From a virus, in the IMG/VR virus record IMGVR_UViG_3300031753_000014, positions 1-43,232 of that record: DNA of 43,232 nucleotides; one strand, given 5' to 3'. Within the stretch, counting starts at the first letter, position 1, and every line of letters begins with the position of its first letter. Below are positions 15,982 through 36,995 of this stretch, one piece after another. The notes below the pieces were generated by a model. That model did not search any database. It was not told where the DNA came from and saw nothing but the letters and a program-made list of their open reading frames with translations. The position numbers and the translations under genes are program-made.

Positions 15982-18170
15982 TGCCGCAAGCGCAACAATC
16001 CCCGACGGTCACTGTTAGGCTTCCGAGTGGGAAGCTGTATGACATCCCGCGCGAGAATCTGGTGCGCGCTAAGTCGCTCGGTGCAGTCGAGTACAAGGAA
16101 CCGGAAGCTCCTGCGCCGGAAGGGACCGCAACTAAAGTGGCCCGTGGCGCAGCACTCGGCGCTTTCTCTGGTGCTGGAATTGCCGAGACTAAATCTCCGG
16201 TTAGTGACACGCTCGCGGGACTGCGCGAGCAATTTGCAACCATGATGGGTGGCAAAGCATGGAAGGGGGAAGACCCTTACGGTATCGAAGCTATCAAAGC
16301 AAATCCTATTATTGCTATCCCGCGTAATTTGGTAAAAGGCGGCTCTGAACTGGCTGAGGATGTTCTTGAATCAGGAACATCCTACGGAAATATCAAATTA
16401 AAGAAAAACATCGATCCTGAAAAACTCTCTCACGACGTTGCCTCTCTATTTACACAACTGGCAACTCTCGGACTCTTCAAAAAAGCGGCCACGGCCGATA
16501 TAGCCGAAGGTGCGGTAGCACGCGGAACCAGGACCGGAGCTCGCGAAATCCTCGGCGTGGGCGAAAAGCAGGTGGAACGCGCCAAGAAGACCGCTGACAC
16601 TGCGGCGGCCGAGAAGATGGCCGAGTACAACGAGAAGAAAGCCAAGTACGACGCCAAGGTAGCCGAAGCCAAAGCCGAGCACGAAGCGAAAATGGCCAAA
16701 AAACAGGCCGAGCATGAAGCGGCAGTGGTGGAAGCCAAAGCCAAACACCAAGCCGATCTTGACGCCGCCGAGCAATCACTGGCCGGGCGTGTTTCCAAGG
16801 AAGCGCACGCGCGATTGAAGGAAAGCCGACTCAACAAAGCGACCAAGACGCTGACCGACTATCGCGACAAACTGGTCAAACAGGCCACCGAGAACATGGA
16901 TAAAGCGGAGGCCAACGAGCGGAAATCGCTCGACTCGCGCTACGAGGACTTTCGCAAGAAAGTTCTGGGAGTAAGCGAAGCGAATCCCAACGGCACTCTG
17001 CAGTCGGAATTGACTCCGGTAGGCCAAGCGGTGCTCGACGCCAAGAAAAACATCCTCAAGGGCTCGCGCACCAATATCACCATTTTCAACGACATCATGG
17101 GACGCCTGAAAGACTTGATCGAAGCTCCTGATGGCACGGTCAAGCCGCTCGAAGGGCAGATGATAGCGACTGACCAGTTACGCGGGTACTACAAGGAACT
17201 GGGCGACGCCATCTACGAAAAAGACCTGCCCGGAGACGTGCGTCAGGCGCTCAAGTCGGTGCAGGACAAAATCCACTCGGAAGTAAAAAGCGCCATCAAG
17301 GACAACCACGGCCAAGCGGCACTTGATGTGTACGACAAGTTGAGCGAGGACTGGGCAGCCTATAAGCGGGTATGGTACGACCGCTCTTCCGGATCGCCAT
17401 TGCCGCGCATTTTGAGGACCATTCGCTCCCCAGTGGCCTTACATGAGGGGGTAAACGTCGAAGGGCCGGTTGCCGACCTGTTAGCACGCAAGCACGCCGG
17501 GAACGCGGTGACCACGATTCTAGCGCGCAAGGCGCAGTTCGGTGCCGATCCCGCGGTGATAGCTCGTCTCGGTGCGGTGTCCAAGAAACTCGCGGGCATA
17601 CAAGACCTGTATGAAACTATTCCGGTAGCCAAGTATCCGCGCTTCCCGAAACTGGAAGTTCCGAAGGCGCCGGAGCGCGAACCGTTCAAGGCGCGCGGCG
17701 AGGAACCGGAAAGGCCGAAGACCGAGCCGTTTAGTGCTCCCAAATATCGCCGGGAGATCATCGGCAAGGAAGTCGAACAGATGTCGCGGCTAAATTTCTG
17801 GGACGTCGCGGCCATCACCGGAGCCATCGAGGAACTTATCCGCGACCCGGAACACTTGGGCAAGGCGGCCGGTATCGCTTCCTATCCGCTCATCAAGCGC
17901 CTTTTAGCACGAGGCATTGAATCGAGACCGGTAATGGATTGGCTGTCCGGAGAAGGAGAGACCGGGAAACCATCACCGCCTAGCTACCGTCCCAGCGAAA
18001 AGGCCCAGACCATGAGCGGTGAACGAAAGAGCCTCGGCAAAGAATTTGAGGCCGGGGAACGCACTCATGAGATTGACCGCTATAAACGAATCATGCGCGA
18101 TCCAAATGCCACATCGGAAGACCGCGTGATTGCCTTGCAAAGACTGATAGAAATGGGGGTTGCACCATGA
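15981..18170 (+). CDS. Large internal virion / ejection protein (729 aa)
   Basis: ATG 15981 overlaps the previous stop (TAATG). It opens with a short beta unit (VTVRLPSGKLYDIPRENL) common at the start of large phage core proteins. A Gly/Ala-rich segment near residue 55 (GAALGAFSGAGIAE) is followed by mixed helices. Residues about 195-265 are an extended Ala/Glu/Lys coiled coil (AEAKAEHEAKMAKKQAEHEA), and more helices run to about 560. A Pro/Glu/Arg linker (EPERPKTEPFSAP) lies near 570, then a C-terminal helical domain. No transglycosylase or peptidase motif is visible. Best explained as the large protein of the ejection complex, by size, composition and place at the end of that cluster. Confidence 0.6.
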   Translation: MPQAQQSPTVTVRLPSGKLYDIPRENLVRAKSLGAVEYKEPEAPAPEGTATKVARGAALGAFSGAGIAETKSPVSDTLAGLREQFATMMGGKAWKGEDPYGIEAIKANPIIAIPRNLVKGGSELAEDVLESGTSYGNIKLKKNIDPEKLSHDVASLFTQLATLGLFKKAATADIAEGAVARGTRTGAREILGVGEKQVERAKKTADTAAAEKMAEYNEKKAKYDAKVAEAKAEHEAKMAKKQAEHEAAVVEAKAKHQADLDAAEQSLAGRVSKEAHARLKESRLNKATKTLTDYRDKLVKQATENMDKAEANERKSLDSRYEDFRKKVLGVSEANPNGTLQSELTPVGQAVLDAKKNILKGSRTNITIFNDIMGRLKDLIEAPDGTVKPLEGQMIATDQLRGYYKELGDAIYEKDLPGDVRQALKSVQDKIHSEVKSAIKDNHGQAALDVYDKLSEDWAAYKRVWYDRSSGSPLPRILRTIRSPVALHEGVNVEGPVADLLARKHAGNAVTTILARKAQFGADPAVIARLGAVSKKLAGIQDLYETIPVAKYPRFPKLEVPKAPEREPFKARGEEPERPKTEPFSAPKYRREIIGKEVEQMSRLNFWDVAAITGAIEELIRDPEHLGKAAGIASYPLIKRLLARGIESRPVMDWLSGEGETGKPSPPSYRPSEKAQTMSGERKSLGKEFEAGERTHEIDRYKRIMRDPNATSEDRVIALQRLIEMGVAP

Positions 18171-18316
18171 GCAGAGGAAAACTAGATAACGCACCGGATC
18201 ACGAAACATCAGCCGAAAGTTACGGCGACCAAGAATCCATGCGCGGAAAGAAGATGTCGCATCGGCGCTCCAAGCGCGGAGGAAAGCGCAAAGGGCGCAG
18301 GAAAGGTTCGCGATGA
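18167..18316 (+). CDS. Small protein with extremely basic tail (49 aa)
   Basis: ATG 18167 overlaps the stop of the large core protein; its stop overlaps the next start. The first 25 residues are acidic/polar. Residues 26-49 (MRGKKMSHRRSKRGGKRKGR...) are almost all Arg/Lys/Gly/Ser and resemble the 15-residue peptide at 4441. Probably binds nucleic acid. It sits too deep in a tightly coupled gene string to be chance, although GC-rich shadow frames can look basic. Confidence 0.62.
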   Translation: MSRGKLDNAPDHETSAESYGDQESMRGKKMSHRRSKRGGKRKGRRKGSR

Positions 18317-18411
18317 GTCCACGTGAAGAAAAAGTGTTGCAGTACGCCAAGGTCGCTCTGCTGTTTATCCTGACGGCGGTAATGACTTGGTTCGCGTACG
18401 GGCATCGCTGA
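18313..18411 (+). CDS. Single-span membrane mini-protein (32 aa)
   Basis: ATG 18313 overlaps the preceding stop (ATGA). A charged N-terminus (MSPREEKVLQYAK) is followed by one hydrophobic helix (VALLFILTAVMTWFAYG) and HR at the end. The stop is directly followed by the GAGGAGG that serves the next gene. Could be a small holin-like or membrane-docking peptide; nothing more can be said. Confidence 0.55.
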   Translation: MSPREEKVLQYAKVALLFILTAVMTWFAYGHR

Positions 18412-18420
18412 GGAGGCGTC

Positions 18421-18822
18421 ATGCGGAAAATTAATTGGTCTCTTACGGTCGATATACTCATTCTGCTGGTGCTCCTGCTCACTTTATATCCGACCAAGTC
18501 GGTGCAGGCGCAACTCGCGGCTTCGAGCGGTTTCTCTTATACCAACATCACGACCGCGACGAACACTCAGATAAAGCCCGCTAACGGGACATTTCACACG
18601 CTGGTTATCAATTCTCCGGGTGCGACCGCCAACGCTATTACTATTTTCGACGCTTCGACGGGTAACTGCACGGGCGGAACAACCATCGCTACCATCCCCA
18701 CGGCTGACCTGCCTGCGGCCATGGTGCCGACGACGGTTGCATTTGACCTTCAATTCACAAACGGACTGTGCGTGACAACCGCTGGGACCACTCCTCCCAA
18801 TATAACGGTCACGTACCGATAG
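18421..18822 (+). CDS. Secreted beta-rich protein with Sec signal peptide (133 aa)
   Basis: First of six consecutive tail-module proteins with export signals. ATG 18421 follows GAGGAGG. Signal: charged MRKINW, hydrophobic core (ILILLVLLLTLY), predicted cleavage after VQA before QLA. The mature part is about 105 residues of beta strands with Thr/Ala/Asn-rich loops and two cysteines (NCTGG, LCVTT) that could form a disulfide outside the cytoplasm. It has no homologue I recognise. In the string it immediately precedes the 767-residue spike-like protein, so a cap, adhesin or chaperone-like partner of the fibres is possible. Confidence 0.65.
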   Translation: MRKINWSLTVDILILLVLLLTLYPTKSVQAQLAASSGFSYTNITTATNTQIKPANGTFHTLVINSPGATANAITIFDASTGNCTGGTTIATIPTADLPAAMVPTTVAFDLQFTNGLCVTTAGTTPPNITVTYR

Positions 18823-18829
18823 GAGATTC

Positions 18830-21133
18830 ATGCGAAGGATTGTCCTACTGCTGGCGTTGTTGGTAGCGCCGCTCTGCCGCGCTCAGAACCTCACAAGTGT
18901 CACCTCGACGGTAAAAGACCCGAGCGGAACAGCCTACGCTCTAGGCTCGTACACTATATCGTTACTGAACACTTCTAACCAGCAACCACAGTTCGGAGGA
19001 AATGCTAATTTCCAAACTACTTATTCAGGCTCGCTAGATAGCAGCGGAAACCTGAGCATCGTGCTACCCTCCAACGCGGTCATAACCCCGCCAGGAACGC
19101 AATGGAACTTTTATATTTGCGCGAATCCCAAACAGATCGCGTCTGTGTTCCCAGCGCCCGTGTTACCGTGTTTCACTTCCGCGCAAACCGTGAGCGGGTC
19201 GACACAAGTAATTACTTTCACTGCTGCGGCGATTCCGTTACCGTCCAACAGCTCGGGCAGCAGCGCATTTAGCCCACAGCAATCCATTACGGTGAGCGAT
19301 AAATGTGCTGTAGTAACAGGAAATTGCTATCCCGTTGCTAATACAGGGCGGTTCGACTGGCAAACCACGCTGGCAAATTCCAGCCCTACGGTGACAACGG
19401 CTTCGACCGCTCCTGTCTTTCGCTGCCCCGGCTCTGTTTATCCTTGCTCTGCCGCTGGAACAGGGAGCGATGTAGGGCTAAAAATTCAGGCGGCTAATGC
19501 CTCTACGCCGGGCTACACGTCGCAAATGACCTCTGTCATTACGCTGCCAGTGGGCACGATTTCCTCCATCACCAGCGCGCACGTCGCTACTGCGTCCACG
19601 ACGGCGGTATCGAACGCCGCAACGCTCTGCGGGGCGACGCCACAAGTTGGCTGCTTAGTTGTTTGGGGGCCGGATGAAAGTGGCGCACTCACGACCGCCT
19701 TTAATGCTCTACTGGCGGCGTGTGGCGGAATGCAGTTGCCGGGAGTGAACGCCTATGGGGATGGCCCGTCAGCATTCCTGACGACGAAGGCGCTTTTCAA
19801 TACCGCATCGGCAGGTGGCAGTGGCACCCGCGCTACTTGCTCGATGGGTTCCGAGGGGGCGCGTTCCGGCATCACGATACGCGGGTACCTCAGTAGCACA
19901 TTCATTATCCCCACCGCCGACTTTGACCCCACAACCTGCATCTACGGGACTTCCGGCAAGGCCTGCTTCTTTACCGCTTGGGACGGCATGAACTTAGAGG
20001 ACATCAACCTGTTCGGCGCGGGAATTAGTTCTCCTTCGACCAGCATGGCCACCAATATCGTCTCGGAGCCGAATCCTCTGGCCGGGACGGTGGCCAGTGG
20101 CGGCAACGTGTTCTGGGACCACGTTAGCTTGATGAATTGGGGCGCTGGAACGTCGGGAATACTGAATTGTCTGCGTGTCAACGGCGGCGTCAACCTGTTT
20201 AATTTCCTAAACATCGACGGCTGTGGCAAGCGCGGCATGGAAGTAGGCACCGGCTCGGCAACTGCCAGTCTGAACGTCACGCTCACTAACGTGAGCATCT
20301 TCGACAACTGGGAAGGCAATTTATTGATTCAGGCGGGGACCGGGCAGCAAATCAATGTCACCTCGACGGGAGGCTCCTACGCATTTCTCGGCTCCGCTGT
20401 GAATGGCTGCGATGTTTCGGTAGTGGCCACAAGTGCCGCAAACACGTCGGCTACCTTTAATTCCTTTGGAGATTTTCTCGGCTATAACCAAGGAATTAAT
20501 AACGGCGTCAAGCAGATCGGCGGATTGTGCGTAAATCTGGGCGCGAACGGCGCGAGCACTGGCGTTGCAGTTGCGAATCTTCACAGTTCCATCGCAGGCA
20601 TCGGTACCGGCAATCAGACTGGTTCCGAAGGCGCATTCATCAACACGGGCGGAACGATTCATGCCTGCAATTCTACATTCTCAGGGTTCGGCTCGGGTAG
20701 CGTGTTCGGGCTGTTCAACTCGGGAACCTTTTTCGATGATTGCCCCAACATCCTGACCGGAACGTCGGGAGGGTACAGCGGAAGCGGAGCGGTTTTTGGG
20801 AGCGCCTCTGTCACCGGCACGGCCTGCGCGACGGGTAATTGGGCGCTTACCTCCGGGTGGGGCACAAGCTCTATTGCCAGCGTAACGGCGGGCGGGGATT
20901 CGCACCGCTGCCAAGTAGTGATTACGGGCGCGGCAGGCTCAGCAAGTCCGGTCCTGACGTGGACCTTCCCGAAAGCCTATCCGACTGTAGCGCCGGGTTC
21001 CTGCCAAATCAGCTTCAACGGCACGCTAACCGGGGAAAGTACGGGAGCGCCTTCCGTAACCTCGGTGGCCTTCACATTCACCGGTACGCCCTCTGCGCAG
21101 ACGTACAGACTGGATGCGTCATGCGGACCGTGA
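18830..21133 (+). CDS. Signal-peptide-bearing tailspike/fibre-like protein (767 aa)
   Basis: ATG 18830 after AGGAG. Residues 1-19 are a clean Sec signal (MRRIVLLLALLVAPLCRA, then QN). Residues 20-140 form a beta domain with the V-T-(S/A)-T-V-x-DP-(S/N)-G start and a PPGTQWNFYIC strand, shared with the 2247-residue protein. The centre (about 290-620) has repeating short Asn/Gly-rich strands with stacked turns, consistent with a right-handed beta-helix as in tailspikes. The last 110 residues (TGTACATGNWALTSGWGTSS...) form a separate beta domain, possibly for trimerisation. Multiple cysteines suit an oxidising location. Probably binds or degrades host surface glycans. The export signal is unusual for a virion protein. 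Confidence 0.68.
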   Translation: MRRIVLLLALLVAPLCRAQNLTSVTSTVKDPSGTAYALGSYTISLLNTSNQQPQFGGNANFQTTYSGSLDSSGNLSIVLPSNAVITPPGTQWNFYICANPKQIASVFPAPVLPCFTSAQTVSGSTQVITFTAAAIPLPSNSSGSSAFSPQQSITVSDKCAVVTGNCYPVANTGRFDWQTTLANSSPTVTTASTAPVFRCPGSVYPCSAAGTGSDVGLKIQAANASTPGYTSQMTSVITLPVGTISSITSAHVATASTTAVSNAATLCGATPQVGCLVVWGPDESGALTTAFNALLAACGGMQLPGVNAYGDGPSAFLTTKALFNTASAGGSGTRATCSMGSEGARSGITIRGYLSSTFIIPTADFDPTTCIYGTSGKACFFTAWDGMNLEDINLFGAGISSPSTSMATNIVSEPNPLAGTVASGGNVFWDHVSLMNWGAGTSGILNCLRVNGGVNLFNFLNIDGCGKRGMEVGTGSATASLNVTLTNVSIFDNWEGNLLIQAGTGQQINVTSTGGSYAFLGSAVNGCDVSVVATSAANTSATFNSFGDFLGYNQGINNGVKQIGGLCVNLGANGASTGVAVANLHSSIAGIGTGNQTGSEGAFINTGGTIHACNSTFSGFGSGSVFGLFNSGTFFDDCPNILTGTSGGYSGSGAVFGSASVTGTACATGNWALTSGWGTSSIASVTAGGDSHRCQVVITGAAGSASPVLTWTFPKAYPTVAPGSCQISFNGTLTGESTGAPSVTSVAFTFTGTPSAQTYRLDASCGP

Positions 21134-21267
21134 AACACCTACTTCTCTTTTTGCTCTTGGCCAGCACCGCGCACGCGCAGACCCCCATCCGCCTGCTGTG
21201 CGCCTCGCATTCGAGGTATACCGATAGCGCAGCGCACGCTGCTGCAAAGTGGAATATGGCATTTTAA
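21121..21267 (+). CDS. Short signal-peptide protein, possibly a remnant (48 aa)
   Basis: ATG 21121 lies in the end of the previous gene. Residues 1-19 are a textbook Sec signal (MRTVKHLLLFLLLASTAHA, then QTP), nearly the same form as the start of the 28260 gene product (..GLARA, then QTP). Only 29 residues follow (PIRLLCASHSRYTDSAAHAA...), so it is either a tiny secreted peptide or a decayed stump of another fibre gene whose body was lost by recombination. Confidence 0.5.
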   Translation: MRTVKHLLLFLLLASTAHAQTPIRLLCASHSRYTDSAAHAAAKWNMAF

Positions 21268-21285
21268 ATTGAAAGGGAATAAAAC

Positions 21286-21519
21286 ATGAGACGTAATAGC
21301 AGTCCGACAGATCGCAGCGACAATTTCGAGCGCCGACTGCGCGAGACGATGGACTCTGAACTTGAGCCGGAGATGGTCACTCCGAACACTGCCGGGGAAG
21401 AAGAACTCCCTGAATACACAGAGGTATTTCCGCTCACCAAGCAGTTCAATCAGACCAACTTCTCAGGACGCCGTGGAGGGCCATCCAAGAGTCAGAGCGG
21501 AAGAGGTCGCGATCAGTGA
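21286..21519 (+). CDS. Hypothetical acidic/polar protein (77 aa)
   Basis: ATG 21286 is preceded by AAAGGGAATAAAAC. The N-terminus is charged (DRSDNFERRLRETMDSELEP), the middle acidic and Pro-rich (AGEEELPEYTEVFPL), the C-terminus basic and Gly/Ser-rich (SGRRGGPSKSQSGRGR). No signal peptide, unlike its neighbours. The stop overlaps the start of the 2247-residue fibre gene. Function unknown; a cytoplasmic partner of the fibre is a guess from coupling. Confidence 0.6.
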   Translation: MRRNSSPTDRSDNFERRLRETMDSELEPEMVTPNTAGEEELPEYTEVFPLTKQFNQTNFSGRRGGPSKSQSGRGRDQ

Positions 21520-24500
21520 AGCGTTGGCTGCCACTACTGTTGTTGCTGTGGGCGCTGCCTGCTCGCGGGCAAGGTGGGTACACCACGGTTACAGCTACCG
21601 TCTTAGACCCTAACGGCGCACCGTACGTGGGGTGTCACGGGAATGCTTCGTTTGTTCCTTCTCCTACCGCTACGCAGGCGCCGCTTATTTCCGGCTCGAC
21701 ATTTCAAACCGATGTGCCGATTCCCGCATGCGACAGCTTCGCCAATTTCACTCTCGTTTTAGTGGACAACAATCAAGTCACTGATGGGCACGTAAGCCCT
21801 CCCGCTTCGCAGTGGAATTTCAACATCGTCTCGCAGGACGGCAAGACTGGGTTTAGTTGCCAGATGACCATTACCGGCGCCACCCAGAATATAAGTTCGC
21901 AGATCCAGGCTTGCGCCGCGCCGCTCTCCGCGCAAGCTGGCGGTGGCGGGGCTTTTGTTGTAAAGCCTGTTCCTTGCGCATCGACCATGGTTTTTACGCT
22001 TGGCGGCGTGGCTCCCAACACGGCCAGCACCGCCTTTACAACCACATTAAATTGCAACGTAACCACTACTAGCATAGCGCCGCCAACCGGGGGAACTATC
22101 CAAGTCGGGGCTATCGCGCAATTCACTCTTACCCAAAACAATGTCGGCGGCTTCACCTTCGCTTGGCCCAGTAATTTTGTTGACCAGCCGACGATTCAAG
22201 GTAACTCCAACGCAACCACAAATGCTTCGTTCTGGTATGACGGGACCAAGTGGCACGCGCAAACTTTCCCTGCTTCGGGTGGTGGAGCGGCCAATGCGGC
22301 CGGAGTGTTTGGCGATCTACAGCGTAATAATGGCTCCGGAGGTTTGGCGGTTGCTCATATCAATGACAACGGAACTGCCCTACGGGTGACAGAAGATACG
22401 CAATTCGCTGGACCGAATCCTTACATTGATGTCCGGCAATATGGCGTGCGCAGCGTGGCTACCGTCCCATCCACAACCGCTAATATTTCATCGGGCACCG
22501 CAACCGCTTCGTTGGCATCGACCAGCACGTTCCAGAACGGAGACGGCGTAATTATCTACGGTGCCGGCCCACCCAGCACGATGGCTACTCCCTCTGCTCC
22601 TACCGTAACTCCCTCTTTGGCGGCGGGCGCGTTGCGCACAACCGAAGTGGTCAGTCCCAGTGCCGGTTCGACCACCTACAATTATCAAATCTTCGCGCGG
22701 GATTTCGCTGGGGGTTTGACTGCGGCAAGCACGGTTGGCTCGACATCCACTGGACTTGCCACCTTGGGGCGTATCGCCGTGACCGTTACAAGCGAGACTC
22801 GCTCCAACAACGTCGTATCAGTAGTGATGTCCGCTCCAACTAGTCTCGTCGTAGGCGCGGCATTCTGGCTGGAGGGTGTCAGCGACACGACTTTCGATGG
22901 TGCATATCTGGTGGCCACCGTCACCGATTCTACTCACTTTACCTTCGCGCAACCCTACGATACTCGCGTGGGGGCTACCACATCTGCGACTGGCGGGACG
23001 CTGTCTTATTACGCATGCAATCGCCTAACTTGGGCTCCGGTCGCAAACGCGTGGCAATACTACATCTATGGCCGAACCGGAGGAACGCTAACCTATTTAG
23101 GAGCCAGCACTCCGCTGGAAACGACGTTTGACGATTACGGTTCGACGATCATGGGATCGCCATACGTTCCGTCTTACGTTCCCACGAATCCGCCAAGTTC
23201 CGCAGTGAATGACCCATTGGTTACGACTATCGTTTCCGGGGCAGGCACTACCAATCTCGTTTTGGCAGCATCGGCCAGTAACACGGTAAGCGGAGCCACT
23301 ATCCTTTTCGACGATGGCATCAATATCCTCACCGCTAAAAACGCGGCAGGGACCGTGCCTCTTTATTTCCCGTCTGGTGGCTCAGGCAGTTATGTGATCA
23401 ACTCCGCGACCGATTTCACGACCGGTAGTCCACCGACGATCTGGCAGGACGGGCCCATCACGCTCAACGAGACGATCAAGGTACAGAACGCCAATTGGTT
23501 CGCCAATCTGGGCGGTTCGGGGCTGCAAGGCATCAATTTTGGACGCGATGCCAACCAACAGGTTTCCGTCAACGCGATGCCTGGAGTATACGCCCCGGCC
23601 AATGGCGCATCGCACCTCAAAAACATCAGCTTTGTGAACACCAACGACCAAGGGCTCAACTGGCTCGAAGATGACACTTTTCCGGGATCGTGGTTTGAGA
23701 ACGGTAACTTCACTACCGGTAATCCAGGGAAAAACGCGGATTATCTAGGCATTGGCTGGGAAGGCCGGGGCAGTTCTATTCTTGAATTTGACCACATCAC
23801 ATTCAACGCTGCGTTTTCGGCGCTGGCCAATATCGGATTGTATGCTCCGTCACTCTACGAACGCGGCGACCTCTCGGCGACACAAGGTGCCGGGACCATG
23901 TTCATGAACGACATCCGGTTTGTCCACAAGGGAATGGTGCAAGACCTGTCGGTAACTATCTCAGGAATCGCCTCAAGCATCCAAGCTCCCTATTCCCAAG
24001 GCGGAAGAACTCCGCTGTTCATGCTCCAAGAGCCCGCCTCTCCTTGCTGCGTAGGCGGAGGCATAACCATCAACAATGCGGTGATGGACACTACAAACGC
24101 TCCGGTCATAGCGAACCTTACAAATTCCGCTCTCAGCCTATCAATATCTTCCATTCTTGGCTCCTCTTCTGGGTATCCGTCGATCACCGGGAATAAAGCG
24201 ACTATCACCAACGGAGGAGCGACAGGAACCTCCGCCGCCGTATCCGGATCCTATCTCAGCGACACTCTGCCCACAGTTCTAGGTTCCGGAGCCTTCCAGT
24301 ACGGAACCACCGCCGCAGTCGCCGCTCCCGGCACGGCGGTAAGCGCGGGGGGCAGCGTTACAAACGGTGCGCATCTATACACCGTACAGTTTCTTGACAT
24401 CAATGGAAGCTACGGCCCGCAGAGTTCCTCTTCCACAGCGACTACGACTACCGGAAACAATACTGTGACCATCACCCGGCCCACCGTTCCTGCCGGGATG

Positions 24501-27500
24501 GTGAATTGGGTGGTTTACCGGGATGGAGTACAGATTCCCCATAATGGTAATCAGTGCACCAATCTTCCGGTAGGGACCACAACTTGGGTGGATAGCGCAT
24601 CGATCTGCGGGAATTCGGTAAGGGCCAACACGGCGGGCGTTACCATGGTTGGCGCCGCTGGACTCAGTAGTCCGACCTTGACCCTGATCAACAATGGATT
24701 CACTGTGTCTCCCGATTTTCCGTCCCCACTATCAGCCAATCGTCTCTGGCACGCTCCGGACGCCACAGGTACCTTGGCCTTCATCGACCTGGCGCAAAAC
24801 TGGACAGCCACGCAGACATTTAGTAATGCGTCGCAGTTACGCTTTTTGTCCACCAACGGGACCAACTATGCAGGTTTCCAGGGCGGTGCGTCGGTCGCTA
24901 ACCTCGTATGGCTATTCCCCACTACAGACTCTTCGGGTACCCAATGCTTATCCTCGAACGGTTCGTTGCAGCTTTCTTGGTCTAACTGTTCAGGGGGCAC
25001 TGGCACGCCGGGTGGCGCGACTACGCAAGTGCAATATAACGCGGCGGGGTCATTCGGCGGCTCGACCAACCTGACGTGGGTATCCCCCAAGCTATCTATC
25101 GGCTCGGCTTCGGGCGCTACCGGGCAATTAGGATTTGTCGGCACGACCAGCGGCGTAGTCACCGCGCAAGCGCAGGACGCTGCAGGCACATGGACCTTCA
25201 AGTGGCCCACATCCGGAGGCACCAGTGGATTTCCGCTCACCACCGACGGCACAGGAGTATCCTCTTGGTCGCTACTCGGCTTGGCGGGCGGTGGAACGAA
25301 TCAAACTACATTTACCGCCAATCAACTTGTTACCGACACTTCCGGATCGTTGGCGTCGCTGGCGGGAACGCTGACAGGCACTAACCCAGTTCTGACTTTA
25401 ACCGCTGGGTCTGCGAGCGCCGTACCGCTCGCGCTAAATACCGCTTCTACTCCCACGGGGGACATCTTCGATCTGCAAGTAAACGGCACAAAAACGTCGT
25501 TCTTCGATAACGGGGCATTCCTGCACGTGCCGCAAATAACCTTCAACGCCGGCAGCAACGCCCTGGTGGTAAGCGGCACCGAAGCAACTTGCCCGATTCC
25601 TCAGGTGGGGGTAGACATCCTTTGCGTCGGCAACTCGGCAACGCATACGATTCAAGAGTTACTGAATGGCACGACAGCTAAGGATGTGGCCCTTTTCTCT
25701 AATAGCGGTCCTTCCGCGCACGGCGTTTGCCTTGTCGGGCTGGCTTTCCCACAGTTGAACTGCACCTCTGCGGGGACTCTAGGGCAAGCTTTCGTGTCTC
25801 AGGGCGGTTCTGCCGATGGCATCTTCACTACTCTTGGAGCAGTCGGCGGAGGTACAGGGAACACCACCAATACGCTGCACGGCGTAGGGATGGGCGAGGG
25901 CACGGCCGCAATGAATTTCTCCAGTGCTGGAACGGCGGGGCAGCCTTTTATCTCTGGAGGCGCGGGTGCTGATGGAGCATATGGGGCACTCAACCTCGCT
26001 GGGGGGGCAAGTATCTTCACGGGGATTCTGCCGATTAGTAACGGAGGTACAGGATCATCAACCTTGTCTGCCGCGAGCATTGTTACGGTCACTGGCGCGA
26101 TCACGCCGGGCGACTGCGTGAAGTGGAGCGCGTCAACGGTAGTGACCGACCAAGGAGCAGCTTGCGGAGGCGGCGGGGGTTCTCCTCCGTTGAACACCAT
26201 CACGGCTGCAACGGGAAGCAACACCATCAATAACGGGTCTAACCCGCAGATATGGAATTCCGCACCCGCCGGGAATTTTACCTTTCTAAAGATTGGCGAG
26301 AGTGCGGCAGGAACAGGGTCAAACAATATTCTGCTGCAAACCGAGACTCTCTCGTCCTCAACAGCGGCTCCATTCCAAGCGGATAGTAACGGAAAAGGAG
26401 TCAAGGTATCGTCCTCCGGGTTCTTGAGCTCCGTAAGCACTGGTGGGACCGACAGCAACATGCTCTATTGCGACGTCACTACCACAACAAAATGCCTGCA
26501 GTTTGTCCTTTCAGGGATCACTGCGGCGAACACTCGTAGCTGGACTATTCAGGATTCGAGCGATACGTTTTTAGGCCGCGCGACGACCGATACGTTGACC
26601 AACAAGACTTACGACACGGCCGGAACAGGCAACGTGTTCAAGATTAACGGGTCACAAGTCGTAGGGTCAGCCTTACCCAACGGAGTCGCAGCCACTACAC
26701 AGGCACAACTCGATAATTCAACCAAGGTATCGACAACGGCCTATGTTGATCTTGCCGTAAGCAACGCTGTGGCAGGGGTAAATCCTGCGATTGCGGTTCT
26801 CGCGGCTACGGCTGGCAGCAATTTAACCGGCACGTATAGCAATGGAGTTTCAGGTGTAGGCGCCACTTTTACGATCACTGCGACAGGAGCCTTTACACTC
26901 GACGGCGTGGCTATCAATACTATCGGTCAGCGAGTATTGCTCAAGGATCAAAGTTCGGCGTTTCAAAATGGGGTGTATACAGCTACCGTAGTGGGAACTA
27001 CCGGAATTTCTCCGGTGTTTACCCGCGCTCTGGACTACGACAGTTCATCCGACATCAATAGCACCGGTACTATCCCGGTGCAAAGCGGAGCGGTAAACGC
27101 CGATACATCTTGGCTCATCACCTCGACGGTCACCACCGTGGGAACCGACTCGTTAACCTACGTTCAATTCAGCCTTTCACCCACCACCTTGGTTACCGCG
27201 GCTTCTAATGCTTCCGGGGCGAATCAAATTGCCGTTTCAGCGGGTGCCAACAAAGCTGTTAATTTTGTGGGTTCCATTCCGCTTTCCTCGACTTCCGCCT
27301 TGACTACGAATTGGACCATCGACAACGCGGCGAACGTCGCAGAATGGGATTTCAGTGGCACCTCCGCATCGTCTTTCTTGATCGGGCAAGATACCGTAAC
27401 CACCAGCGGCTCGGGGAACTTCAGTTCTCCCATCCTCGACCTGTACGGAAAGTATTGGAACGGCACAACTGATTCCAAAGACCACTGGACAACACAAGAT

Positions 27501-28259
27501 ATTCTCGGAACGGGCAACGGGCCGTCTACTTCCACTTGGCAACTCACCCACAGCGGCAGCACAGCGAATTTAATAATCGCTTTCCACAATCTGCTTCAGA
27601 TGACCAACGGCGTGCAGTTGCGCGCTGGAACCTCGGGTTTAACCTGGTCGCTGGTTGGCGGGCAGGATGTAGGTAATCCCGCCGGTCAAGTCGGAAGTCT
27701 TGATGTGCGAGGGGGTAATGTTACTAGTGGTTCTTCCACCGGGAATAAAGCCGGTCACGTGTGGGTCACGGGGGGAAATAACGGCGGTACCAGCACATCC
27801 TCGCAAGCCGGAAGCGCGGAGATCGGTGCCGGACAGTCCACGGGAGCCACGCAAGGGCAACAGGGACTTTACGTCGCGTATTTATCTTACGTCAAAGGTG
27901 CCACGGTAACCCAATGGAACCTTGAGTGTTTTTCCTCCGCGATGACCGTGACCGATTGCGGGGCGAGTCCTGGAAACTGGCTAGGGGTTGCGGAGGTCGT
28001 GGGAACTAACACGATCCAAGTCGTTTCGGAAGGTTTGGTTCCCGTGAACAGCAGCAACTCAGCGACGGTTGGCCATACTTTTTGCGCGGGTTCCACGGCG
28101 GGACAGGGCACCGACAGCGGAGGAACGACCGCTTGCGCACTCGGTTCGCAGATCGGCATCGTCGCCGATGTCACCGCGTCGCGCGTTTATACCTATCCGG
28201 ACGGCACCAGCGTGACTATCTCTGCGACGCTGCCATTGATCCAAATTGCGAGGGATTGA
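21516..28259 (+). CDS. Giant signal-peptide-bearing tail fibre/spike (2247 aa)
   Basis: GTG 21516 overlaps the previous stop. Residues 1-19 are a Sec signal (MKRWLPLLLLLWALPARG, then QGG). Residues 22-140 repeat the TVTATVLDPNGAPY domain of the 767-residue protein, including PPASQWNF. Residues about 305-330 (DVRQYGVRSV) are the usual opening of a pectate-lyase-like tailspike helix. FN3-like units lie around 345-415 and 930-1030 and a 'V..G...GV.D..FDGAY' unit near 425-485; beta-helix-like sequence fills about 560-900. From about 1160 on come typical fibre repeats: QVQYNAAGSFGG, GGGTNQTTFTANQLV, SNGGTGSSTL, TLTNKTYDTAG, and QNGVYTATVVG...RALDYDSSSD. Probably the main receptor-binding fibre. 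Confidence 0.72.
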   Translation: MKRWLPLLLLLWALPARGQGGYTTVTATVLDPNGAPYVGCHGNASFVPSPTATQAPLISGSTFQTDVPIPACDSFANFTLVLVDNNQVTDGHVSPPASQWNFNIVSQDGKTGFSCQMTITGATQNISSQIQACAAPLSAQAGGGGAFVVKPVPCASTMVFTLGGVAPNTASTAFTTTLNCNVTTTSIAPPTGGTIQVGAIAQFTLTQNNVGGFTFAWPSNFVDQPTIQGNSNATTNASFWYDGTKWHAQTFPASGGGAANAAGVFGDLQRNNGSGGLAVAHINDNGTALRVTEDTQFAGPNPYIDVRQYGVRSVATVPSTTANISSGTATASLASTSTFQNGDGVIIYGAGPPSTMATPSAPTVTPSLAAGALRTTEVVSPSAGSTTYNYQIFARDFAGGLTAASTVGSTSTGLATLGRIAVTVTSETRSNNVVSVVMSAPTSLVVGAAFWLEGVSDTTFDGAYLVATVTDSTHFTFAQPYDTRVGATTSATGGTLSYYACNRLTWAPVANAWQYYIYGRTGGTLTYLGASTPLETTFDDYGSTIMGSPYVPSYVPTNPPSSAVNDPLVTTIVSGAGTTNLVLAASASNTVSGATILFDDGINILTAKNAAGTVPLYFPSGGSGSYVINSATDFTTGSPPTIWQDGPITLNETIKVQNANWFANLGGSGLQGINFGRDANQQVSVNAMPGVYAPANGASHLKNISFVNTNDQGLNWLEDDTFPGSWFENGNFTTGNPGKNADYLGIGWEGRGSSILEFDHITFNAAFSALANIGLYAPSLYERGDLSATQGAGTMFMNDIRFVHKGMVQDLSVTISGIASSIQAPYSQGGRTPLFMLQEPASPCCVGGGITINNAVMDTTNAPVIANLTNSALSLSISSILGSSSGYPSITGNKATITNGGATGTSAAVSGSYLSDTLPTVLGSGAFQYGTTAAVAAPGTAVSAGGSVTNGAHLYTVQFLDINGSYGPQSSSSTATTTTGNNTVTITRPTVPAGMVNWVVYRDGVQIPHNGNQCTNLPVGTTTWVDSASICGNSVRANTAGVTMVGAAGLSSPTLTLINNGFTVSPDFPSPLSANRLWHAPDATGTLAFIDLAQNWTATQTFSNASQLRFLSTNGTNYAGFQGGASVANLVWLFPTTDSSGTQCLSSNGSLQLSWSNCSGGTGTPGGATTQVQYNAAGSFGGSTNLTWVSPKLSIGSASGATGQLGFVGTTSGVVTAQAQDAAGTWTFKWPTSGGTSGFPLTTDGTGVSSWSLLGLAGGGTNQTTFTANQLVTDTSGSLASLAGTLTGTNPVLTLTAGSASAVPLALNTASTPTGDIFDLQVNGTKTSFFDNGAFLHVPQITFNAGSNALVVSGTEATCPIPQVGVDILCVGNSATHTIQELLNGTTAKDVALFSNSGPSAHGVCLVGLAFPQLNCTSAGTLGQAFVSQGGSADGIFTTLGAVGGGTGNTTNTLHGVGMGEGTAAMNFSSAGTAGQPFISGGAGADGAYGALNLAGGASIFTGILPISNGGTGSSTLSAASIVTVTGAITPGDCVKWSASTVVTDQGAACGGGGGSPPLNTITAATGSNTINNGSNPQIWNSAPAGNFTFLKIGESAAGTGSNNILLQTETLSSSTAAPFQADSNGKGVKVSSSGFLSSVSTGGTDSNMLYCDVTTTTKCLQFVLSGITAANTRSWTIQDSSDTFLGRATTDTLTNKTYDTAGTGNVFKINGSQVVGSALPNGVAATTQAQLDNSTKVSTTAYVDLAVSNAVAGVNPAIAVLAATAGSNLTGTYSNGVSGVGATFTITATGAFTLDGVAINTIGQRVLLKDQSSAFQNGVYTATVVGTTGISPVFTRALDYDSSSDINSTGTIPVQSGAVNADTSWLITSTVTTVGTDSLTYVQFSLSPTTLVTAASNASGANQIAVSAGANKAVNFVGSIPLSSTSALTTNWTIDNAANVAEWDFSGTSASSFLIGQDTVTTSGSGNFSSPILDLYGKYWNGTTDSKDHWTTQDILGTGNGPSTSTWQLTHSGSTANLIIAFHNLLQMTNGVQLRAGTSGLTWSLVGGQDVGNPAGQVGSLDVRGGNVTSGSSTGNKAGHVWVTGGNNGGTSTSSQAGSAEIGAGQSTGATQGQQGLYVAYLSYVKGATVTQWNLECFSSAMTVTDCGASPGNWLGVAEVVGTNTIQVVSEGLVPVNSSNSATVGHTFCAGSTAGQGTDSGGTTACALGSQIGIVADVTASRVYTYPDGTSVTISATLPLIQIARD

Positions 28260-31200
28260 GTGAGGCTGAAGCTATTCACGATTTTTGTTTTGTCTTTGCT
28301 GGGCGGCTTAGCTCGTGCGCAGACGCCGGTGACCGCCTGTGGGACACTCAGTAGCGCCAGCACCACTTACAAACTCCAGAACAACATCTCTTCCACAGGA
28401 ACCTGCATTACCCTCGGGGCTTCCAATATCACGCTAGACTTGAACGGTTTCAATATCACCTACGACTCAGGAAACAGCGCCTCGGTCTTCGGAATCACGA
28501 CGGCCAGCAATAGCGTGGTTGGCTCGCACATCACTTCCTCGGTAACCGGAGCTCCCTCGGTGGCTGGCGGCGGAATCTACACCAGCACGGTTTGCAAAAT
28601 CAATCTTCAGACCCAGGCCAATACTGCCAGTGGTTGCGACCACGCCGATCCCATCAGCGTTTTTGGAGACGTGCAAATCGACCATGTGCTTTTGGTCGAC
28701 TACGGACTAGACAACGAGGCTATCCGCACGCAGTCAGGCGGGAACATCAACATTCACGACAATCTTATCTGTCCGTACCACACGTTAAGCACGCTGAATC
28801 ACTTCGCGGTTTTTGGGGAAATAGACCTGACCAACGCGGCCGGAGGACCGGCCATCGTCAATAACAACACCATCGGCACCTCGGCCTGCCAGTCGGTAAT
28901 CGGATTCTCCAACGGCTTCGGGTACGTCTCCATCTACATCGCTCACCCCGGCACATTTTCTCCGCAACTGGAAATCACCAATAACAATATCTCTATGGCC
29001 TCAGCGGTACGCGACGGTTACGGCGTGGAAATTTTGTGCGTGACAAATAGTTCGGGAGCGGTGAACTTCGAGATTGCGAACAACACCATCAATCAGGTTA
29101 GCGCGCGCGGCATAATCGTCGACGGAGAAAACACCAACAGCCCTCCAGGTTGCGGAACCGGAACCATTCACGACAATACCATCACGGTGAAGGAGGCTGG
29201 CAACGAGGGCAATAGCGCCGGTGATTCCATCGGCATCCAAGCGCGGTTTGGGGCCAGCAACGTCCAAATCTACAACAACACGGTTACCGTCCCGGTGGGC
29301 GCAGGCCAGTGTCCAGCGCAATTCTTTACCGACAGCGGGAGTGATTGCGGGGGAATCGGCATAAAAATGATGGCTACCTCCGGGGTAGCGCAAAACCTGA
29401 CGGCCTTCAATAACACAGTGACAGCCACTTCCACCAGCGCGAGTTTCGTAGCCGCTGGTTTGTATGGAGACTTCACCGGGGAGTCTACTTCCTTTTTCAA
29501 AAACAATAATGTCTCCTCCAACTCTTCCCCTATCAGCGTAGATCCTCCGGGCGGCGGCGCGGGATTTGACGGATGCGGAAGGTTTTGGCTTTTCCAAGGC
29601 AACACCATCACGAAGCTCCCCAATCCGCAAGGCTACTTTACGTTTACGAATCTGTGGTTCTGCACCCCGACGCAGACCGGAGCTCAGGACACCACCAACA
29701 ACGTCTTCCTCGACAATACGTATAGCGGAGGAGCTTCACCGGACGACATTGGCCCGACCAACACATCCGGAACGACCTTCAGCTATTACCTGAAATGGTC
29801 TTATAACCTGACGGTTACAAACTCCGGAGTCCCTGTTTCCAATGCTTCGGTTACTGCTGTGGCGACCGGAGGCGGCAGCGAAACGGTCAGTGGAACTACC
29901 AATGCCAGCGGGCAAGTCACCTTGGTAGCCACTCAACATTTCGTCTCAGGCACCAGTTTTGCCTCGCAAACGACCACCAATTTTACGCCTCACAACCTCA
30001 CGATCGCCAAATCAGGATGCACGACGCTTAATTACACAGTCTCCCTGACCGCTACGACGAACGACACTCGCGCTTTATCGGGCAGTTGCGTCAGCATCCC
30101 TAATATTTATATCGCTCAGTCTTCGGCAGGAACAGCGGATGGTTCTTCATGCGTGAATGCCGTGGCGGCCACGTTCTTTAACACGGCAGCGAATTGGGGT
30201 GCGGCAGCTACGCAGATCGGCAGCGGGACCACCGTGCATCTGTGCGGGATCATTTCCACTACTCTGGTTAGTCCGGCCTCGCAAGGCACCGGGCTAATTA
30301 CCATCACCTTTGAACCGGGCGCCATGATGCAGCAAGCCGCTGCGCTAAATTTCTTTTCCATCACCAACAAAACGAATTCTTACCTGATTACCGGGCAGAG
30401 TCCGTGCGGCTCGCAAAACCATATTGATGTGGCCTGCACAGAGAAGATTCAGAATACCGCTAACGGGTCGCCGACCTCTTTCCCTAATTCGGTATTCGGG
30501 GTTAAGGCTATTGATTTTTCCGGCAGCACCGGTTCCCTGACCGTCCAGAACTTGGAAATAAGCAACCTTTACGTGCATACCGACCCTAACGATCAAGCCA
30601 ATTTCGACGGTGCTCACTTAGCCATCGGATTGTACGCCGACCTGATGCTGGGCAACATGACCATCCAAGACTCGGTTATGCACGACAATGCTTGGGCGGT
30701 TTCTCCTAATCCGCGGCAGGGCGCTCCAAATCCGGTTCTCACCGTCGCGCGCGTAAACTTCTACAACAACGATCACGACATCGCGCTCGGTTCGACCTGC
30801 AACCCCGCCTGCTATTCTGTGGTCATCAACGGCATCCACTCGCACGACCATCGCGCCTGGAACACCTACAGCAATCAGTTTCACCACGACGGAATACATA
30901 TCTTCGGAAGCCAGAACCAGGTTACCAGCGCGTTGCTGTACAACAGCCTGTTCGACGGTCCATGGGACCAAGACGTTACCGGGCCAATGTTCGATCAGTC
31001 GTCGATTGCCAACTTCACCGTCTTCAATAACGTGTACCGCTGCGACACAACCTGTACCGGAGATCCCATCGCGCTCTGGCAGTACGGCGGTGGCCCAAAC
31101 CACCACATGTACAACAACACCTTCCTGCAGAGCGGGGTTCCACGCACTGGCACGGTAACGGTGATAGCCGTCAATTCCGGGGGTTCCGGAGCCACTTCGG

Positions 31201-32528
31201 CATGCTCCATGACCGGAAACGCGACGTGCACGGCAACGGTGGTTGGCGGCGTGGTGACTGCGGTGACGGTGACCAACCCTGGCTCGGGCTATCAGTTCCC
31301 TCCGACTGTCACTCTTTCTGGTGGGGCAACCGCGACGGCTGGAATTGGATTCAGCAACAACAGCGGCCTTGAGCTAAACGGCAAGCCCGCAGGCTTTCTC
31401 GCCCCCAGTTCCAACGTTACTGTTATGAACACCATCGCGGACAGCACGGCACAGTGCTTCGCCTATATCGAGGTGGGATTCGCGCCCAACACCGCTACCT
31501 CCGGCCTCGATTACAACATCTGCTCGAACTACATCACCAGCGGCAACAAAGCATTCAACTGGACCTTTAACGGAGTGCAGACGACTACCGACGTCTTCGC
31601 CACTTGGCAGGGGCTTTCAGGCGAGGGTACCCACTCAAGTATGGTGGCTAGTGCCAACCTCGATCCCACCGGCAAGCCGCAAGCAGGCTCTCCCGCCATC
31701 GGCGTAGGCGCCAATCTCACTTCGTTGTGTGTAGGGGCCCTGGTGCCGCTGTGTACCGATTATGCTGGCGTCAGCCGGCCGGCGTCGGGACCTTGGACTA
31801 TCGGAGCGTTTCAAGTCAGTTCCAGCAGTCCGATAGTCGTTTTCAACCCAACCACCCTTACCTTCGCTAGCCAATTGGTAGCGGTACCGAGCTCCACGCA
31901 AGCGGTTACGCTGACCAACAACGGTCCTGGCAACGTGGTGGTTTCCTCTGTTTCGATCACCGGGACTAATGGCGGAGACTTCTCACAAACCAATACTTGC
32001 GGGACGGTGGCGCAAGGGAATACCTGCACCATCACAGTGACCTTCAATCCGACCGCAACAGGCTCGCGCACAGCCAGCGTCAGCATCACCGACAATGCTA
32101 CGGGCAGCCCGCAGTCTATTCCACTCACAGGGACGGCGGTGCTTCCGACGCTTTCTCCCGCGTCGATGGCTTTTGGCAGTCGCTTGGTGGGCAGTTCGGT
32201 TTTGTTGTCGCAGGCTGCTACGCTCACCAATCCATCATCGGTGCCATTGAGCATTTCCAGCATTACGATCCCAGGCGCGGTCGACCCGCAAGGCTTTACC
32301 GACTTCACGCAAACAAACAATTGTGGCGCGTCATTGGCAGGCGGGAACAGTTGCACGATCACGGTAACCTTCACTCCGCACGTCCTGTCTGCGATGGCGG
32401 CAACACTGACCGTGGCGCACAACGCGGGAAACAGCCCGCAGACCATGGCGTTAAGCGGAACAGGGATAGGGAACCTTTCAGGCACAGGAGCTATTTCAGG
32501 CAGCGGAAGCATCATCGTTAAACCGTAA
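28260..32528 (+). CDS. Signal-peptide-bearing beta-helix protein with C-terminal HYDIN/ASH repeats (1422 aa)
   Basis: GTG 28260 directly follows the previous stop. Signal: MRLKLFTIFVLSLLGGLARA, then QTP. Residues 30-500 are a right-handed beta-helix (ITLDLNGFNITYDSG, then many NNTI/NNTV turns as in pectate-lyase folds). About 515-600 is a carboxypeptidase-regulatory-like beta unit (VTNSGVPVSNASVTAV...GQVTLVATQ). About 612-1180 is a second beta-helix with NGIHSHDHRAW and NNTFLQSG turns and a GGSGATSAC insert. About 1190-1290 and 1295-1405 are two ASH/HYDIN-type repeats (FNPTTLTFASQLV..., LSPASMAFGSRLVG..., each with NTCTITVTF or NSCTITVTF and an L-(T/S)-GT end). The tail is Gly/Ser-rich (GAISGSGSIIVKP). 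Likely a surface or fibre protein acting on glycans. Confidence 0.7.
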   Translation: MRLKLFTIFVLSLLGGLARAQTPVTACGTLSSASTTYKLQNNISSTGTCITLGASNITLDLNGFNITYDSGNSASVFGITTASNSVVGSHITSSVTGAPSVAGGGIYTSTVCKINLQTQANTASGCDHADPISVFGDVQIDHVLLVDYGLDNEAIRTQSGGNINIHDNLICPYHTLSTLNHFAVFGEIDLTNAAGGPAIVNNNTIGTSACQSVIGFSNGFGYVSIYIAHPGTFSPQLEITNNNISMASAVRDGYGVEILCVTNSSGAVNFEIANNTINQVSARGIIVDGENTNSPPGCGTGTIHDNTITVKEAGNEGNSAGDSIGIQARFGASNVQIYNNTVTVPVGAGQCPAQFFTDSGSDCGGIGIKMMATSGVAQNLTAFNNTVTATSTSASFVAAGLYGDFTGESTSFFKNNNVSSNSSPISVDPPGGGAGFDGCGRFWLFQGNTITKLPNPQGYFTFTNLWFCTPTQTGAQDTTNNVFLDNTYSGGASPDDIGPTNTSGTTFSYYLKWSYNLTVTNSGVPVSNASVTAVATGGGSETVSGTTNASGQVTLVATQHFVSGTSFASQTTTNFTPHNLTIAKSGCTTLNYTVSLTATTNDTRALSGSCVSIPNIYIAQSSAGTADGSSCVNAVAATFFNTAANWGAAATQIGSGTTVHLCGIISTTLVSPASQGTGLITITFEPGAMMQQAAALNFFSITNKTNSYLITGQSPCGSQNHIDVACTEKIQNTANGSPTSFPNSVFGVKAIDFSGSTGSLTVQNLEISNLYVHTDPNDQANFDGAHLAIGLYADLMLGNMTIQDSVMHDNAWAVSPNPRQGAPNPVLTVARVNFYNNDHDIALGSTCNPACYSVVINGIHSHDHRAWNTYSNQFHHDGIHIFGSQNQVTSALLYNSLFDGPWDQDVTGPMFDQSSIANFTVFNNVYRCDTTCTGDPIALWQYGGGPNHHMYNNTFLQSGVPRTGTVTVIAVNSGGSGATSACSMTGNATCTATVVGGVVTAVTVTNPGSGYQFPPTVTLSGGATATAGIGFSNNSGLELNGKPAGFLAPSSNVTVMNTIADSTAQCFAYIEVGFAPNTATSGLDYNICSNYITSGNKAFNWTFNGVQTTTDVFATWQGLSGEGTHSSMVASANLDPTGKPQAGSPAIGVGANLTSLCVGALVPLCTDYAGVSRPASGPWTIGAFQVSSSSPIVVFNPTTLTFASQLVAVPSSTQAVTLTNNGPGNVVVSSVSITGTNGGDFSQTNTCGTVAQGNTCTITVTFNPTATGSRTASVSITDNATGSPQSIPLTGTAVLPTLSPASMAFGSRLVGSSVLLSQAATLTNPSSVPLSISSITIPGAVDPQGFTDFTQTNNCGASLAGGNSCTITVTFTPHVLSAMAATLTVAHNAGNSPQTMALSGTGIGNLSGTGAISGSGSIIVKP

Positions 32529-32538
32529 GGAGGACTTT

Positions 32539-32916
32539 ATGAAGAGATTTGGAGTAGGACTTTTGTTGGCTACGTATGTGGCGTTTATCTTGGCCAGCGC
32601 TTTTTTGCTCAACGAGAAAACGTTAAAGGCGCAAACGGTGGTGCCGCCGATCACCATTCAATCGACCATCCCACACACGGCCTGCCCGGTAGCGGCGACC
32701 GGGGTGACCAGCTATTGCTTCGCGTCGGACGGGCTGTGGGAATCGATCAGCGGTGCCGCCTACACGCAGTTGGGCGCAGCGGTAGCGGGGGGGGTGACCA
32801 GTTTCAACGGTCGCACAGGCGCGGTAGTTTCGGTGACCGGAGACTATTCCTTCACTCAATTGAGCAACCAACCCACCACAGTAAATTGTGGTGCAAGTGG
32901 TTGTGTCATCAAGTAG
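32539..32916 (+). CDS. Signal-anchor protein with fibre-type NGRTGAV motif (125 aa)
   Basis: ATG 32539 follows AAGGAGGA. N-terminal hydrophobic segment (VGLLLATYVAFILASAFLL) with a possible cleavage after LKA before QTV, or retained as an anchor. The C-terminal half contains GVTSFNGRTGAVVSVTGDYS, the fibre-tip motif 'NGRTGAV' found in many tail fibres, and two Cys pairs (ACPV...SYCF, NCGASGC). It looks like a small secreted cousin of the fibre ends; perhaps a fibre tip or accessory piece. Confidence 0.62.
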   Translation: MKRFGVGLLLATYVAFILASAFLLNEKTLKAQTVVPPITIQSTIPHTACPVAATGVTSYCFASDGLWESISGAAYTQLGAAVAGGVTSFNGRTGAVVSVTGDYSFTQLSNQPTTVNCGASGCVIK

Positions 32917-33836: not shown

Positions 33837-34016
33837 ATGACCAGCCCTGATAAGTTAGACACGCTAATCGCCCGTCTGAAGAAACTCTCTGCCAGGTTGA
33901 AAGAGCAGGAGAAGGAATTGCGCACCACTGAACAGCAACTCCTCAAGTACATCGAGAAGCTAGGACGGGAGGATGTAGGCCCAGACCGCCTCTATTCCTC
34001 CATCAGTAAAAAGTGA
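33837..34016 (+). CDS. Small coiled-coil protein (59 aa), last + strand gene
   Basis: ATG 33837. Residues 5-45 are a continuous heptad helix (LDTLIARLKKLSARLKEQEK...), followed by a polar tail. Its 3' end overlaps the end of the convergent endolysin gene by 57 bases. No signal or membrane segment, so it is not an obvious spanin. Function unknown. Confidence 0.52.
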   Translation: MTSPDKLDTLIARLKKLSARLKEQEKELRTTEQQLLKYIEKLGREDVGPDRLYSSISKK

Positions 34017-34436
34017 CCTCATCTCGTCGTCTGGTGAGGCAGGACATTCCTGCGGGTACAGGTGAGGGTTATCGGGCGTCGGGCGACCTTGGTGGTCGCA
34101 CCACTTAGCGCCTTCCGCCAGCCCGCACGACGGCGCTTTCTCCAGCAGTTCTTCCCATTCCGGAGTATCAATATTCCAGTCGGGAACGTTCATCAGCATC
34201 GGACAGACGTCGACTGCGTACCCGAAATTATGGGCGCTATAGCCGGCGCGAGCGTCGGTAACAATCCTGCCTGGAGTGGTTCTTCCTTGGGCGTAGAGCG
34301 CGTTCTGTTCTGCGAAGGTGCGCAAGCCTTGAACCACGCGAATAGTAAAAGACAGCAGGTCCGCGAGCTGGTGGATGCGGCGCGAGAGTTCTGGGTGCAC
34401 CAGTGCAAGGCGCTCTTCGCTGATGGCATCAAGCAT
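33960..34436 (-). CDS. Endolysin, peptidase M15 (L-Ala-D-Glu endopeptidase type), 158 aa
   Basis: Cleaves the peptide cross-links of peptidoglycan for host lysis. Residues 35-55 have the family start QGLRTFAEQNALYAQGRT. The zinc site SAHNFGYAVD gives H69 and D76, and the third ligand H125 is in DNPHLYP, matching the SxHxxGxAxD...H arrangement of M15 lysins. Length is normal for phage-T5-type enzymes. No signal peptide, so release depends on a holin. ATG 34436 lies just after the stop of the upstream gene (TAATATG). It is the last gene of the - strand string. Confidence 0.88.
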   Translation of the reverse strand: MLDAISEERLALVHPELSRRIHQLADLLSFTIRVVQGLRTFAEQNALYAQGRTTPGRIVTDARAGYSAHNFGYAVDVCPMLMNVPDWNIDTPEWEELLEKAPSCGLAEGAKWCDHQGRPTPDNPHLYPQECPASPDDEMRSLFTDGGIEAVWAYILPS

Positions 34437-36794: not shown

Positions 36795-36995
36795 CTAAAC
36801 TTGACCGCGCTGCACAAATACATCAGTCCAGCACTCTTCCCAAAGCATCAGCGGGATCTGTGCGGCTTGGTATCGCTCGCGAAACGCGAATCCAGTATTC
36901 TTCCAAATATGAGTGTGGATGTGCAGCAAGAGGTACCAAGGACCCCGACGGCGCAGCGATTCGGTTATATCCAAACCTGAATAGTCGTCTTTCAT
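36795..36995 (-). CDS. Hypothetical Trp/His-rich protein (66 aa)
   Basis: ATG 36995 overlaps the stop of the upstream gene (ATGA). Contains WYLLLHIHTHIWKNTG and LMLWEECW; alpha-helical character with several aromatic residues. No family recognised; supported by coupling and a balanced composition. Confidence 0.52.
   Translation of the reverse strand: MKDDYSGLDITESLRRRGPWYLLLHIHTHIWKNTGFAFRERYQAAQIPLMLWEECWTDVFVQRGQV

Follow-up and report, generated by a model that had tools for sequence, protein, structure and literature searches.

Putative tail fibres and spikes with predicted Sec export and paired cysteines in a group of soil phages

The tail module of a podovirus-like phage (IMG/VR virus record IMGVR_UViG_3300031753_000014, whose whole stretch of 43,232 bases is called the window here) encodes proteins with predicted cleavable Sec signal peptides. 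On balance, these exported proteins are most likely fibres and spikes, with a virion location that we infer. The explanation judged probable is that export through Sec is followed by trimming and disulfide bonding in the periplasm and, at lysis, by capture on virions. The sequence gives strong support for export and oxidation, and attachment to the virion would follow them. The evidence consists of the predicted signal peptides and their conservation, a disulfide signature, the position of the genes and the homology of the largest protein to fibres. The carriers are a large group of soil phages, the window's phage included, and the signal-peptide pattern is much broader than in the sequence-only reading in which it was first noted.

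Table 1. Positions of the window features discussed in the text (SP, signal peptide; SD, Shine-Dalgarno sequence; ^, cut site)
Feature	Position	Strand	Signal peptide	Remarks
Terminase large subunit, putative (ORF end)	1-624			From position and reading only
Portal protein	1497-3200	+		phrog_156, E 4e-12
Major capsid protein	7341-8198	+		phrog_9953, E 1.5e-20
Last putative ejection protein, 729 aa	15981-18170	+		0 Cys; homologs in G005, G007, G009, G012
133-aa protein	18421-18822	+	18421-18510, 30 aa, ...KSVQA^Q	SD AGGAGG; SP by rule; mature part a small domain, 2 Cys
767-aa putative fibre/spike	18830-21133	+	18830-18883, CRA^Q	N-domain about 18884-19258; 22 Cys in mature part
48-aa ORF, 29 aa once cleaved	21121-21267	+	AHA^Q	Overlaps 3' end of the 18830 gene
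77-aa acidic protein	21286-21519	+	None	Homologs in G005, G007, G012, L027
2247-aa putative fibre	21516-28259	+	21516-21569, ARG^Q	GTG start; N-domain 21570-21929; 25 Cys
Tail-fibre-homologous region of the 2247-aa protein	26622-27293	+		tblastn, aa 1703-1926
1422-aa protein	28260-32528	+	28260-28319, ARA^Q	GTG start; 32 Cys
125-aa protein	32539-32916	+	32539-32631, long, LKA^Q	4 Cys; SFNGRTGAVVS motif

The sequence-only reading had described six consecutive genes with Sec-type N-termini cut before Gln. All six N-termini read as described and pass the signal-peptide rule given below; five of the genes are well supported, while the 48-aa ORF at 21121 is doubtful. Shine-Dalgarno sequences are good at 18421, 18830 and 32539, weaker at 21516 and 28260, and absent at 21121, which may be a doubtful gene or a leftover signal-peptide cassette; a comparable 67-aa ORF with a signal peptide lies between the fibre genes of record G012. 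The row is not strictly consecutive either, being broken by the conserved gene of a 77-aa protein with no signal peptide. Four phages and record L027 have this gene immediately ahead of the first (type A) fibre; its product had no match in PHROG and is possibly an adaptor or a fibre partner. A lipobox, with Cys at +1, is absent from all six N-termini, where +1 is Gln, and was seen only in an unrelated gene on the minus strand (35213-35854, LSGC). The latter lies beside a minus-strand gene for a 253-aa protein (34438-35199; phrog_19005, unknown, E 1.7e-31), and in G005 and G012 the genes found at about this place encode a twin-arginine-like N-terminus that ends in Cys.

Signal peptides were called by a home-made rule: a basic n-region, an uncharged 10-residue core with a mean Kyte-Doolittle hydropathy of at least 2.2, small residues at -3 and -1, and a cut no later than residue 40. 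The rule was used alone, because a cleavage-site matrix trained on signal peptides of E. coli proved over-fitted and its scores were dropped. For the 125-aa protein, the rule places the cut at residue 20, compared with 31 for the LKA^Q site. Applied to the window and three relatives, the rule scored 9 of 13 genes of the tail module as positive, versus 4 of 154 others (Fisher p = 2e-9). Among the controls, one of the 55 CDS of T7 and two of the 56 of P22 passed, the latter being the spanins Rz and Rz1, and both the T7 fibre and the P22 tailspike were negative. Shuffled N-termini pass the rule in 2-15% of cases because N-terminal composition alone is hydrophobic, and the signal-peptide case draws its weight from the enrichment, from conservation and from the tests on cysteines.

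The exported genes stand in the virion structural module, beside the tail and ejection genes. Adaptor and nozzle genes also belong to the window's virion operon, and several Cys-free proteins, the last ending at 18170, are ejection-like by gene order. The 729-aa gene, for which the T7-like gene order suggests an ejection role, is the upstream limit of the exported module. In the four related phages, all plus-strand ORFs of at least 120 aa called between the ejection genes and the first holin-like genes carry a signal peptide (the G005 gene at 36169 was counted by sequence reading), and therefore no candidate for a large fibre lacking a signal peptide is found in these phages. Within the same operon, the window has two nozzle-like ORFs, 10598-11719 and 11719-13410, with a 1-base overlap (TAATG). 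The intact form is a single 947-aa chain in G012, the first window ORF matching its residues 1-334 and the second 382-947.

Relatives were retrieved from IMG/VR with the portal as query, and all records are metagenomic and possibly fragments. Queries of viral_contigs and genome_contigs with the 729-aa protein, with the 767-aa fibre, with an N-domain DNA motif or with an alignment of two sequences gave no confirmed match, and both the portal and the 767-aa fibre were without a match in INPHARED. No bacterial carrier was found in genome scans, and a plasmid search gave no match. Within or just past the exported-fibre cluster of two relatives, an ORF with a LuxR/GerE-type helix-turn-helix (LTAREKQV...GKCNKEIA...SERTVKF) is present, at 36813-37136 of G005 (reverse orientation) and at about 29750-30070 of G012; none was seen there in the window. 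One end of the G007 record (4488-8462, reverse orientation) holds genes that look glycosyltransferase-like on reading.

In their mature N-termini, the 767-aa and 2247-aa proteins share homology (34% identity, E 1e-11). The AF2 model of this N-domain is a beta-sandwich (pLDDT 94.5, pTM 0.86), for which Foldseek gave a match with a "tail fiber protein" from a virus (E 5.8e-5, TM 0.68). A PDB sequence search gave no match. Weak PDB fold matches to an intradiol-dioxygenase-like sandwich (best E 6e-3, TM 0.55) were not read as indicating an enzyme.

In 28 IMG/VR records, 48 non-redundant copies of the N-domain were detected with a local profile search. In 45 of the 48 copies a signal peptide directly precedes the domain, mostly with a cut before Gln, and most copies retain small residues at -3 and -1 together with Gln at +1. 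Two of the 45, missed by the rule, were assigned by reading, in L034 (MRKLLLLAIAIIAIPQTMMA^Q) and L059 (MFVFLLLLSLAPFCHA^Q). Portal families differ among the 28 records (phrog_156; phrog_332/1216), which belong to at least two phage lineages, and in L032 and L048 the genes with signal peptides lie between the capsid/decoration and adaptor genes. The three copies with no signal peptide are all in L031 and L060 and begin right at the domain, that is, at the position of the mature N-terminus. Two of them have their own start, MAGFGFTTV... in L031 and MPSSTTVSG... with a strong Shine-Dalgarno sequence in L060, and in the third (L031, 9976-10663) no standard start codon precedes the domain.

Because a signal peptide may be decorative, cysteine use serves as independent evidence for export, and the cysteine content follows the signal peptide. 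In the four related phages, Cys makes up 1.87-2.20% of the mature exported proteins versus 0.53-0.64% of other structural proteins (capsid, portal, nozzle and ejection proteins). The number of Cys is even in 31 of 36 curated proteins with a signal peptide, and in 34 of 38 complete domain proteins with one (p = 3e-7, a value that overstates independence, as do the parity p-values in general, since the domain copies are related). The N-domain itself has 0, 2 or 4 Cys in all 48 copies and never an odd number. Its three pairs of Cys columns (5/12, 9/8 and 4/13) are strictly present as both or none, provided that for 4/13 a two-column shift is allowed in L034. Over the full length of the protein, the three copies lacking a signal peptide contain 0, 0 and 1 Cys and are the Cys-poorest of the 48, and their neighbours with signal peptides in L031 and L060 are Cys-rich. 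Homologs with no signal peptide in annotated phages have 0-1.1% Cys, and a G007 homolog of the 133-aa protein, 27% identical, has neither signal peptide nor Cys. Counting against the main reading, the 2247-aa protein has an odd number of Cys. For exported proteins, an even count of Cys is reported to be accepted as a mark of disulfide bonding and to serve in the prediction of DsbA substrates (PMC7678975). Signal and Cys pairing go together, as would be expected if the proteins with signal peptides fold in an oxidising compartment and those lacking them in the cytoplasm. This pairing, confined to proteins with signal peptides, makes maturation of fibres in the periplasm the best supported of the three options offered by the sequence-only reading.

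The identity as fibres is clearest for the 2247-aa protein. Its residues 1703-1926 matched by tblastn a protein of Limnohabitans phage DC31 (E 2e-6), as well as annotated tail fibres of Methylophilales Melnitz phages and Pelagibacter Mosig (E 1e-3 to 4e-3). The 125-aa protein has a motif seen in phage fibres (Table 1) and a weak tblastn match to the tail fibre of E. coli phage ES17 (E 0.05) and to other phages, and an L039 protein with a signal peptide is similar to virion structural proteins of cyanophages. Searches of domain databases gave no match for the 767-aa and 2247-aa proteins, and no fibre similarity was found for the 133-aa and 1422-aa proteins, nor for the 767-aa protein beyond the N-domain common with the 2247-aa one. 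Of the large beta-helix/fibre proteins proposed before, fibre homology was obtained for the product of the 21516 gene, while a beta-helix was not confirmed in the window genes. The case for a fibre is less clear for the 1422-aa protein, whose C-terminus is of the choice-of-anchor-D/ASH type (NCBIfam NF012200, E 1.4e-30; Pfam Cep192_D4/ASH; phrog_18474, E 5.6e-27). Choice-of-anchor D domains are characteristic of proteins that bacteria secrete, which counts against it.

According to the favoured explanation, tail fibres and spikes would be synthesised with cleavable Sec signal peptides and translocated late in infection to the periplasm of a host assumed to be diderm. Host signal peptidase I would cut them before Gln, and the host oxidation machinery would fold them, presumably as trimers, with disulfide bonds. 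Cys-poor heads and tails would meanwhile be assembled in the cytoplasm. Once the inner membrane has been opened by the holin, cytoplasm and periplasm would mix before the outer barrier fails, and the fibres could bind the virions on their way out, probably by docking of the N-terminal beta-sandwich. Mixing at lysis would be the simplest route from an exported fibre to a cytoplasmic virion. Late attachment is plausible because finished particles of P22 and T4 accept tailspikes and fibres, respectively, in vitro, but we know of no direct precedent in tailed phages for attachment after lysis. In broader terms, the chances seem evenly balanced that these phages represent a widespread two-compartment class of tailed phages, with cytoplasmic heads and tails and periplasmic fibres, in which signal peptide and beta-sandwich form a cassette swapped on and off fibre bodies.

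A possible but doubtful alternative is that the exported proteins never join virions and work instead at the envelope or beyond the infected cell, by masking receptors against superinfection, by degrading polysaccharides for release or as decoys. Such roles would require no more than signal peptides and disulfides, and would also suit the choice-of-anchor domains of the 1422-aa protein, a weak beta-helix/NosD match in an exported protein of a relative and the presence of several paralogs per phage. However, these podovirus-like phages would then be left without any fibre, and the genes are located within the virion operon. The regions that the 2247-aa protein has in common with annotated tail fibres also argue against it, as does the occurrence of the N-domain in phage proteins with no signal peptide, one of which matches a head-decoration PHROG. 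Display on lysogens, as proposed in the sequence-only reading, is disfavoured, unlike display or secretion during lytic infection, by the position in the late virion operon; in addition, lysogenic conversion was set aside because no tyrosine integrase (PF00589) was matched in 11 records, which may be fragments.

It is far less probable that the hydrophobic N-termini stay uncut and serve as virion anchors, another of the earlier suggestions, or as membrane-piercing tips at infection. Some of them are long (18421, 32539 and the G005 gene at 35681) and could anchor. Uncut anchors nevertheless fit poorly because the homologs with no signal peptide start at the mature end; the small -3/-1 residues and the Gln at +1, with AxA^Q sites, are kept in most copies, and paired Cys present only with a signal peptide would be left unexplained. 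Finally, ordinary hydrophobic N-termini or host-origin genes, arising by chance, assembly error or recent acquisition, might be invoked given the pass rate of shuffled N-termini, but this is already refuted by the recurrence of the arrangement in the 28 records and at least two lineages, and the strong enrichment in one module speaks against it as well.

Periplasmic maturation followed by capture at lysis can be compared with known systems. In the textbook view, morphogenesis of tailed phages is cytoplasmic, and assembly of the T7 fibre and of the P22 tailspike takes place in that compartment. Like T7 gp17 and P22 gp9, the exported proteins are encoded after the ejection and before the lysis genes (T7 order), and they are large and modular, with a common N-terminal domain and a variable rest. 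Unlike them, they carry predicted signal peptides; fibre homologs with no signal peptide contain 0-1.1% Cys. Coat proteins of filamentous phages have cleaved signal peptides and meet the genome outside the cytoplasm, and in this respect resemble the candidate virion proteins described here. However, filamentous coat proteins are membrane-embedded and extruded through the envelope, whereas the window proteins are predicted to be large, soluble and disulfide-rich and come from tailed phages with holin-like ORFs. Sec-exported endolysins are known, such as Lys44 of phage fOg44, with a cleaved signal peptide, and the SAR endolysins of P1 and phage 21 (PMC6116005). They are likewise late phage proteins that use the host Sec, but as lysis enzymes they are not virion parts. 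No peptidoglycan-hydrolase domain was matched in Pfam or NCBIfam among the exported proteins searched, and the window's M15 peptidase (33960-34436) reads without a signal peptide. The 1422-aa protein resembles bacterial choice-of-anchor D/ASH proteins in its C-terminus, signal peptide and many Cys, but is encoded within a phage structural operon.

In agreement with the earlier remark that no such system had been described, no exported fibres of tailed phages were found in searches of the open-access literature. The proteins are filed under tail fibres, and a two-compartment assembly route is a categorically new possibility. If true, virion assembly would require a final step during lysis, fibres could gain disulfide stability for life in soil, and the host Sec and disulfide-forming enzymes would be host factors for infection. 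A signal peptide with even, paired Cys would then provide a simple sequence rule by which to recognise the receptor-binding proteins of uncultivated phages from soil, for which annotation is usually unsuccessful.

Among the relatives, L036 encodes at 16593-18425 a 610-aa pectate-lyase-like protein with no signal peptide (phrog_27797, E 4.6e-14). It adjoins four genes with signal peptides, and its Cys content, 1.1%, is lower than that of most of the four.
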